Assembly (NCBI GenBank): GCA_018907035.1 | Contig: JACCIC010000049.1 | Coordinates: forward strand, 2,746,001 to 2,810,000 | Length of the DNA: 64,000 bases | Source of the DNA: Sycobia sp. Sy_11 | Lineage: Eukaryota; Arthropoda; Insecta; Hymenoptera; Epichrysomallidae | Reading direction: 5' to 3' | Shown: positions 4,901 through 7,900 of the stretch, one piece after another | Layout: each line of letters starts with the position of its first letter | Position numbering within the stretch: position 1 is the first letter of the stretch | Translations under genes and position numbers: made by a program | The notes under the pieces: model-generated | What the model was told of the DNA's origin: nothing | Database searches by the model: none | What the model saw: only the letters and a program-made list of their open reading frames with translations

Positions 4901-7900
4901 GGAATTTTCATTGCAGTATAATAATAATAAAAACACGTATAGAAAAAATTAAGGAAATATCATATATATCGGATTGCTTATTAAACGTGATGGACAAAAA
5001 ATACAATTATTTTCGTATATATATAATGCCCAATGATTTATAATGATAATAAATTTGACGTAAAATTTTGGTTTAGAAATCTGTAAAAAAAATTTCCCAA
5101 TCTTTTTCAGCATTGAAATTTTAAATATTATAATACAACATTGGGGAAAAATAATTCGACAGAAATTGTAAAATTAAAAAAAAAATTCATAACACTTAAA
5201 GGTAATGAGGATGAAAAAATATTTAGCAAAAAACTAAATTAGCCTTCTATCAAACGAAATAAATATACAGGGATAACAGAAATCTGCTACAATTTTATTT
5301 GTTTTTCACCTGAGACTCGTACGGCAAGAAAGCGATGTTGATCTCTTTAAGTGTTTTTATCTTTTTAGCAGCGAGAGACTTGCAGATATCATTGAACATC
5401 TCCTCGGGGCACACTGAACGAGTGCAAGCATATGGAATGCAAGTTTTTGTTAGTAAATGTGCTCGTGTGTTACCGTCAAAGAGCCAGAGAGAAAGAGACA
5501 GAAAAGCGAATGTCCATGAATAGTTTATATAATTAACAAACACAACTGCATTATATTGCAAATGTTAATACAAAAATTTACTTTATTTAGAGATTTTAAA
5601 TAACTTGAATGTATTAAATTTAATTTGATTCTAAATTTAGCAGTAAAATACTGAAAAAATGACAATATTTTACTACTTTTTGAATTACGTAATAATTTTG
5701 TGAAAAATATTTATACTTTATAAAAAGGAAAATTTGTTGAAAAATAGCTATTATTGATATAAATATCAATAATATAGCTTGATATTAATTATATATAACA
5801 AAGCATTTATTGACACATTGATCTATATAAATGATTCTTAGTAAAATAGAAATATTATGTAGTTGAAGATGTATTTGAACTTTGTATAAAAAATCTCGAA
5901 TTTTCCAAATCAGCTGAATGTGTTTGTTAATTTGTGAAACATCATTACTGTAACAGAGAATTGTGTAAATTGTAACATCTAAAATCAAATATCGAAAGAA
6001 TATTATACGGAAAAAGTATTTATAAAAATTACTATACTTTCTAATAGTAAAGAGATATACTTGAATTATGAGAAAAATTATTATACATATATTAAATTTT
6101 AATATAATTTTTATTAAAAAGTCGTACAAGTTTAGCAATTATTAATAAAGCTATGGTAAAATTTCTTATAAGCCAAGTACGCCACTGCATTAGTGGAAAG
6201 TTTAGTACATTTTAGTGAAACATTACTCTCATTGTATTATTTTCGAAATAAACAATAAAAACTGCATTTAAAGCCTCGTAATGTTCTATATTCTTAAAGT
6301 ATTTCACGATTCTCTGTCCAATTCTTGAAACGTTCACTAAAGGAAATCGAAAGAGATCTGTGAGTTTTTTTTAGTGATACAAGCCCTTCACCGTGAAACA
6401 TCTTCGAGGTACAAACGCATGTATAATTAATTTACAATTTTTTGTTGTTTTTTTTTCTTTAAATCACTCTATCACAGATTTACCTGTTCCTCGTACGGTA
6501 TGAAAGCGATGTTGATCTCTTTCAATGTCTTTATATACTTAGCTACCGTCGAATGACACAAATCATTGAATAAGTTGTAGGGGCACGCTGGAAAGAGACA
6601 AACTTAGGATCTAAACAATATTCTTCCAGCCAATTGTGTTAGCATAAAATTAATCAATCTTCATTCGATTTCACGCGCATACTATATGGTATATATACAT
6701 ATATACTCCATAAATTTAGAAACATGTGCTTCAGAATTTTAATACTACTTTAATATTTGCATGAAGTGATTAACCTATTAATTAAGAAGGCTGTTAATTA
6801 TTCTCAAGGCAATCTTATTGGGTTCGTTGTATTGTATAAGGCTGCTTGGAATAATTTGCCATTGTAGCATAACAAAGAAAACATCTGTCATTTAATTCAT
6901 GTTTAATGATTAAAACTTTCTAAATTTAAGAGTAGCAAGCTATTTTTACAACATTATTATTCTTACAAATCGTGCATGTATTAATAACTAGATGTTAATT
7001 CATCAAAGTAAAATATAAATTAATTTAGAAATGATTGGCAAACAAGAACTTTAATTTAATTTCAGTTATTTTGTGAAACACAAATTTTCGCTGACAGCCT
7101 AACAAGTAACAGTATCCATTTATTACTTTAATTAGAGTTAAATTCGATTAACTATTGCTAAATAATATTATTTACTAGTTTATATTTGTTTTCTCTTTAC
7201 AAATTCGACAAAAAATTATACTTTATATGAGTTGCGTAGTATCATATTTATATCTAATTATTTAAGTTGAATCGAAATGAATGTATAGTACTTGTTTAAT
7301 GAAAAAAAAATTATATATAGTATATTTAAAAATATATATATTAATTTGAGTCGCTTAAAATAAAATAGTGTTTAAAATAAGACATTACTAGAAGAAACTG
7401 TGTGAATACAGTCCTTTATACAAGAGTCAAAATTAATATTCTGCACGAAGTAATATGTACATTGCACAGATGCATTATATGATTTTTATTCCAATCGTGT
7501 TTGTCTTGTACGATACGTTTAGTCAAAATATATTAATAAGCAGCCAATGTTCCATAAAAAATTTTCACCTCAAATCTATTAATACATCTACATATTAGTA
7601 CCTAAATAAAACGTCTTTTATCACAGCTACTTTTCAAATTAAAATAAATAAATTTTATCTATTCTGATATTACGAAATCCTTCTAATACCTTTTACACAT
7701 TTTGTCAAGACAAGGTGCCTTGTAAAATTTATTAATTTATATATTTATTCAAAATATATAAGATTCTTTATTGTCCATTTAGCTTCTAATCCGCAGTTAT
7801 TCTAATAAAAGTTAAAAAACAAACTCAAAAAAAGAAGAAAAATCTTTTCTAACGATGATTCTACAGACAGTATCGAAACTATTTTTTATAATTCTGTCGC

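Follow-up and report, generated by a model that had tools for sequence, protein, structure and literature searches.

A tandem pair of alternative exons in the Rop/Munc18 gene

The Rop/Munc18 gene of this animal genome, probably that of an insect, carries two adjacent and homologous exons of 104 nt, 3a and 3b, and it is quite probable that they represent an ancestral exon that was duplicated in tandem and retained as mutually exclusive alternatives, from which two forms of Rop result. Judged from the genomic sequence, the finding is probably functional: this key synapse protein would then exist in two versions, which differ next to the site that holds the tip of syntaxin. The pair lies in the window analyzed here (the whole stretch of DNA, 64 kb, C417:2746001-2810000), at exactly the positions and with exactly the lengths proposed in an earlier note on this DNA (Table 1). 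The acceptors read ...TTTCCAG (3b) and ...CGTTCAG (3a) and the donors GTAAAT (3b) and GTGAAA (3a). As that note had also proposed, the two exons share their phases, with exon 2 ending in phase 1 and exon 4 starting in phase 0; the splice forms 2-3a-4 and 2-3b-4 are each in frame; and the encoded 34-codon segments are homologous, with 24/34 residues identical. In the assembled gene, both of these forms stay open until a stop at codon 588. At the nucleotide level, the copies agree at 75/104 positions and differ at 29/104. The codon across the exon 2/3 junction differs as well, being V in the 3a form and A in the 3b form, so that the variable segment comprises 35 residues, 24 identical and 11 different.

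As 104 cannot be divided by three, messages with both exons or with no exon end early: inclusion of both or of neither breaks the frame, as had been claimed, with a stop at codon 162 (both) or codon 155 (neither). The further claim that selection must be exclusive stands for productive messages and goes too far at the RNA level, where double inclusion or skipping could occur and the resulting messages be degraded. The pair has the features by which tandem mutually exclusive exons are recognized: equal length, homologous translation in the same frame, intact splice sites, in-frame joins, and joint inclusion or joint skipping that is predicted from the frame to give no functional product. An exon length not divisible by three is found in 377 (60%) of human mutually exclusive clusters (PMC5740500). 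The same early stops, which truncate the protein with several junctions still downstream, would also suit a form of dose control, in which the second exon mainly yields unproductive messages and the splice ratio sets the amount of Rop, not its type. However, a pure poison exon needs neither an open frame nor a Munc18-like peptide, while 3b retains 24 of the 34 residues and the 2-3b-4 form is fully in frame; we regard dose control as improbable.

Table 1. Features of the Rop/Munc18 gene and of the introns around the alternative exons (window positions).
Feature	Position	Strand	Remarks
Rop exon 1, coding part (MALKAQVGQ...)	15400..15427	-	28 nt; donor GTGAGT; in-frame join to exon 2
Rop exon 2 (297 nt), ends phase 1	8652..8948	-	TTAG acceptor, GTACAA donor; genome match 98%
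Alternative exon 3b (104 nt)	6484..6587	-	AG/GT borders, open frame
Intron between 3b and 3a, 1070 nt	5414..6483	-	without third exon copy
Pyrimidine tract TTCGCTTTTCTGTCTCTTTCTCTCTGGCTC, PTB-like, candidate splicing-repressor site	5481..5510	-	26/30 pyrimidines
TACTAAC, candidate branch site	5449..5455	-	branch A 37 nt upstream of exon 3a
Alternative exon 3a (104 nt), more canonical copy	5310..5413	-	AG/GT borders
Rop exon 4 (149 nt), starts phase 0	4370..4518	-	human STXBP1 exon 7 equally long
Rop exon 5 (216 nt)	4065..4280	-	equals 85+131 of human exons 8 and 9
Rop exon 6	3623..3721	-	gene assembly; genome match
Rop exon 7	3335..3542	-	gene assembly; genome match
Rop exon 8	2955..3203	-	gene assembly; genome match
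Rop exon 9	2686..2873	-	gene assembly; genome match
Rop exon 10	2354..2508	-	gene assembly; genome match
Rop exon 11, last coding exon, ends in stop	1921..1991	-	gene assembly; genome match

Identity, copy number and exon layout of the gene

The gene spans 15427-1921 on the minus strand, and 12 coding exons, the alternative pair included, were assembled. The spliced product of the 3b form matched squid s-Sec1 over query residues 1-582 of 587 (E 4.7e-260) and aligned with rat Munc18-1 over query residues 2-583 (E 6.4e-255), and its first 192 residues matched the Pfam Sec1 family (PF00995) with 143 bits. These near full-length matches and the Pfam match bear out the original identification of the gene as Rop/Munc18 and place it, by sequence, among the SM proteins in the Rop/Munc18-1 subfamily. 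When the 621-Mb genome (472 contigs) was searched with the 3a-form protein, 12 matches were obtained, 11 of which are exons 2, 3a, 3b and 4-11 of Rop; the twelfth is a distant SM gene on C426, with 29% identity. Exons 2 and 4-11 had one genome match each, and the 28-nt exon 1 is absent from the genome-search matches. Since 11 of the 12 matches are exons of the same gene, Rop appears to be a single gene as far as the genome search sees. A search for relatives in a viral contig collection gave no pattern match, and the 14 pattern matches in a prokaryotic contig collection included no relative.

Several other features of the window were recorded. By eye, no gene besides Rop was recognized in its list of open frames, and no Rfam family of structured RNA reached the gathering score. 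Dinucleotide runs recur, and a Tandem Repeats Finder score of 150 was reached by those at 39159-39283 (AT) and 24469-24563 (AC). A scan of ten Rop introns gave three microexon candidates, the sole one with a pyrimidine-rich acceptor being a possible 27-nt in-frame microexon at 2553-2579 (minus strand) in intron 9/10, with the sequence ...TTATTTCTCAG / TTACAACTTGTTGAAATACAAGAATAT / GTAAGTTG across its borders. It would add (S)YNLLKYKN(I) ahead of ARYGHWHK and leave a downstream intron of 44 nt, the shortest other Rop intron being 80 nt, and it may be a chance occurrence.

The two copies compared with chance and artefact

With 3a as the tblastn query against the 64-kb window, 3b scored 55.5 bits and the next best place 20.0 bits; across 300 dinucleotide-shuffled windows, the best tblastn scores had a median of 18.9 bits and a maximum of 24.6 bits. 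Chance similarity of 3a and 3b is excluded. A blind repeat search of 4519-8651 returned the 3a/3b pair as the longest direct repeat (112 nt, 73%). Genome-wide, the 3b peptide had two matches, 3b itself and 3a, and no third copy of the exon was found in the window (3a query) or in the genome (3b peptide). Compared without gaps, the flanks of the two exons agree at 23/60 nt upstream and 19/60 nt downstream. The similarity thus ends at the exon borders, which argues against an assembly artefact. A doubling of one exon by error, through misassembly or uncollapsed haplotypes, is opposed further by the 29 of 104 nt at which the copies differ, by the 1070 nt and the unrelated flanks that set them apart, and by the single appearance of the remaining Rop exons matched in the genome (2 and 4-11); we give it next to no credence.

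A probably ancestral exon shared with human STXBP1

In the exon listing excerpted from PMC10086123, human STXBP1 exons 5 to 9 measure 79, 104, 149, 85 and 131 bp. Human exon 6 has the same length and position as exon 3 here, the series 104, 149 and 85+131 in human corresponding to 104, 149 and 216 in this gene, and presumably also the same phase. Whereas the present gene has a pair, that listing contains a single 104-bp exon 6 (PMC10086123). The match in exon lengths points to an ancestral exon that was duplicated in tandem. Most likely, the 104-nt exon with these borders predates the arthropod-vertebrate split and the tandem duplication came later, on the lineage of the present genome. For vertebrate STXBP1, the earlier note had stated that the described alternative splicing is C-terminal; this agrees with the passages of PMC10742812 on splice variants, in which the named forms STXBP1L and STXBP1S differ at the C-terminus. 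RBFOX2-dependent splicing has been reported for mouse Stxbp1, in passages of PMC10676425 that do not specify the exon.

Selection on the two copies

Sequence comparison indicates that both copies have been under coding constraint, and it disfavours neutral decay of one of them. In simulations that placed 28 neutral changes on either copy, the fraction of the 20,000 runs that retained an identity of at least 24/34 never exceeded 0.0002, whichever of three mutation spectra was used, a result that puts all change on one branch and weakens if 3a took much of the change; 19-48% of the runs were stop-free. Independent of how the change was split between branches is its distribution over codons, which is bimodal: 22/28 nucleotide changes fall in the 10 replaced codons, with 2-3 hits each, and 6/28 in the 24 shared codons, leaving only 4 single-change codons (P about 7e-5 for so few). 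The same codon is used at 19/24 shared residues, compared with 10.75 expected from the codon usage of the gene (P about 3e-4). Random decay would not easily produce this pattern. It suggests that certain sites were replaced repeatedly while nucleotides were conserved elsewhere, and exonic splicing signals, gene conversion or a fairly young duplication may be the source of that conservation. By the NG86 method, the two copies have a dN/dS of about 0.44 (0.285/0.65), which alone is weak evidence for constraint because 34 codons are too few. As a separate observation, the final eleven of the codons that 3a and 3b share are identical in codon too, with one 21-nt identical run; these terminal codons may reflect gene conversion or an exonic splicing signal common to the two copies.

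In phmmer comparisons, 3a scored 79.9 bits with the squid protein, 72.6 with Munc18-1, 63.0 with Munc18-2, 48.9 with Munc18-3 and 31.5 with the UNC18 of 2xhe, which we take to be from a choanoflagellate; the corresponding scores of 3b were 78.3, 66.5, 60.5, 43.8 and 34.7. Exon 3a is therefore ahead by 1.6-6.1 bits on squid and Munc18-1, -2 and -3, and 3b by 3.2 bits on 2xhe; the lower score of 3b for four of the five Munc18 kinds counts against a pair in which both copies are kept. The squid or rat residue is kept by 3a at positions 112, 113, 120, 123, 138 and 142 and by 3b at 109, 114, 118 and 122, and at position 126 neither copy matches squid or rat Munc18. Over the 35 residues, identities number 26 for 3a-squid, 25 for 3b-squid, 25 for 3a-rat, 23 for 3b-rat, 24 for 3a-3b and 25 for squid-rat. 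By these comparisons, both copies have changed, both are still good Munc18 segments and neither is simply the old one. The distance of 3b from 3a, about as great as that of either from squid, is a hint of an old duplication, and the shared codons are a hint of a younger one.

Since 3b is the less canonical copy, with Y112, N113 and H120 in place of the E/D, E/A and K of squid and rat, it could be suspected of being a duplicate that is dead or dying and has gone out of use, and the dN/dS value could be read in this way. Such a fate, however, is hard to reconcile with an intact AG and GT, a pyrimidine-rich acceptor, a strong donor and a frame free of stops and indels, with the rejection of one-branch neutral drift and the bimodal codon pattern, or with scores like those of a real Munc18 segment, and we consider it very unlikely.

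How one exon may be chosen

Of the 11 donors in the gene, those of 3a and 3b match U1 best, with predicted duplex energies of -8.4 kcal/mol (3a) and -8.3 kcal/mol (3b) against -4.5 to -7.2 kcal/mol for the other nine. Two simple ways of enforcing exclusivity were rejected. Steric exclusion, taken to require a branch point within about 50 nt of the donor, is ruled out by the 1070-nt intron, whose candidate branch site is over 1000 nt away from the donor of 3b. Incompatibility of U2 and U12 sites is set aside on the GT-AG borders and on the finding that neither ATATCCTT nor TCCTTAAC, the two exact motifs searched, occurs in 4519-8651.

The intron between the exons contains two elements that may bear on the choice. 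TACTAAC, the candidate branch site of 3a, occurs once in 4519-8651, and the pyrimidine tract just upstream of it has the highest pyrimidine count of any 30-nt stretch in that region. Exons repressed by PTB-like proteins have such a layout of tract and branch site. The PTB-like tract beside TACTAAC suggests a protein-controlled choice; the site is a resemblance in motif, and binding to it would be by analogy with such exons.

A different mechanism of choice, otherwise compatible with a mutually exclusive pair, would be competing long-range RNA pairing of the Dscam type, in which a docking site and selectors, and not a protein factor, enforce exclusivity. Excerpts from PMC8042237 and PMC6071210 describe this as a known mechanism for mutually exclusive exons of insects. 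We scanned four intron stretches for duplexes (the first and the last 600 nt of intron 2 and the introns after 3b and after 3a), with 8 shuffles per pair. In 2/6 pairs the real duplex was slightly better than all 8 shuffles: by 0.4 kcal/mol where the start of intron 2 (600 nt) was paired with the inter-exon intron, and by 1.5 kcal/mol for the two introns flanking 3a. In 4/6 pairs, on the other hand, the best shuffle was 0.9-6.6 kcal/mol lower than the real best. Taken together, the real duplexes did not stand out clearly from the shuffled controls, and one genome with 8 shuffles per pair gives this comparison little power. RNA pairing as the agent of exclusivity seems to us unlikely.

The variable segment lies in domain 1 at the reported syntaxin N-peptide site

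The alignment of the query with the Munc18-1 chain (3puj; 594 residues) covers residues 100-153 and is free of gaps. Numbering in the window and in rat therefore agrees, and the exon corresponds to residues 109-143 of domain 1. The region of domain 1 that the exon covers has been reported to bind the syntaxin N-peptide, and mutations around Leu118 are reported to alter how the syntaxin N-terminus is bound; when an insertion was placed after Leu118, binding of closed syntaxin stayed intact and that of Mint1 was moderately affected (PMC3061876). Deletion of the N-peptide destabilizes the Munc18-1 template complex (PMC6320071), and E132A of Munc18-2 has been found in familial haemophagocytic lymphohistiocytosis type 5, FHL5 (PMC9492833). 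In the present gene, E132 is the same in 3a and 3b. Also identical in the two copies are F115, I127 and L130, which we take to line the N-peptide pocket as well. Around the site, 3a and 3b differ at positions 112-114, 118, 120, 122, 123 and 126. With the pocket residues unchanged and the differences lying around them, the swap would most likely tune the binding of the N-peptide or of a partner and not abolish it. The core N-peptide residues being unchanged in sequence, a difference in binding is not guaranteed.

Syntaxin-1A of the same genome was located through four middle exons, one copy each, at C102:3979235-3982527 (loci L015, L016 and L019-L021). The two longest share 91% over 46 and 95% over 61 residues with fly syntaxin-1A, and 76% over 46 and 71% over 85 residues with rat, the stretch of 85 being partly intron. 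For the two shorter exons, the order is reversed, with 77% over 26 and 64% over 25 for fly, and 85% over 20 and 72% over 25 for rat. The N-peptide exon and the C-terminal exons were not located within the 70 kb searched, so the introns may be very long.

A model for two forms of Rop

In the model that we consider quite probable, an exon of the ancestral neuronal SM gene (Rop/Munc18-1; exon 6 of human STXBP1) would have been doubled in tandem, so that one gene could give two Rop proteins differing at 11/35 residues of domain 1 (109-143 in rat numbering). Each productive message would carry one exon, and messages with both or neither would be truncated and removed by nonsense-mediated decay. The active choice would probably be made by an RNA-binding protein, e.g., a PTB-like factor bound to the pyrimidine tract that precedes the branch site of 3a. 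The swap would leave the fold and the core N-peptide site, E132 included, intact and would re-tune the residues around the site, which may alter affinity for the N-peptide or for another partner of domain 1. Such a shift in affinity could change how Rop engages open syntaxin and SNARE complexes across cells or stages.

A more far-reaching possibility, which we put forward tentatively and with some doubt, is that one SM gene supplies two syntaxin-recognition surfaces: 3a and 3b would differ in N-peptide binding or pick different syntaxins or adaptors, and the mode of SNARE engagement would be switched cell by cell. The two copies stand at much the same distance from squid Munc18, which would be consistent with an old duplication under such a two-surface arrangement.

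Precedents and implications

By analogy, the nearest precedent for the Rop pair is exon 5a/5b of vertebrate SNAP-25. As described in passages of PMC2581893, it too is a tandem duplicate with an obligate single choice in a single-copy gene of the same fusion machine; 9/39 residues differ between 5a and 5b, their use is developmentally regulated, and the pair is reported absent from Drosophila. The SNAP-25 pair is about three quarters identical, like Rop 3a/3b. SNAP-25 is, however, a SNARE and not an SM protein, and its swap affects the cysteine (palmitoylation) region, whereas that of Rop affects a partner-binding site of domain 1. The SNAP-25 pair is backed by isoform and knock-in evidence; the Rop pair is known here from the genome. 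The mutually exclusive exons of Dscam1, cacophony and U2AF1 are likewise tandem and homologous.

Among the matches listed in the literature searched, parts of which were available as excerpts, none concerned a tandem exon pair in any SM protein. Excerpts from PMC9741552 give 154 fly genes with tandem duplicated exon events, and the portions of its main text at hand name no Rop, Munc, unc-18 or STXBP1, the gene table being in the supplement. The main text of PMC3303723 names no Rop, Munc18 or Sec1, and that of PMC5740500 no STXBP1. RefSeq annotation of Rop in other insects may already contain the pair.

If both Rop forms behave alike, this is merely another tandem exon pair. For the fusion of synaptic vesicles Munc18/Rop is essential, and how it binds syntaxin (closed syntaxin, N-peptide) has long been disputed, mostly by means of engineered mutants. 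The Rop pair would add an SM protein to SNAP-25 as a component of the fusion machine diversified by tandem exon duplication. Vertebrates have separate Munc18-1, -2 and -3 genes, and if the two-surface possibility were true, splicing would do here what vertebrates do with those separate genes. A swap of exons that touches domain 1 on its N-peptide side alone would, moreover, amount to a natural experiment, with two endogenous forms that could be removed singly.
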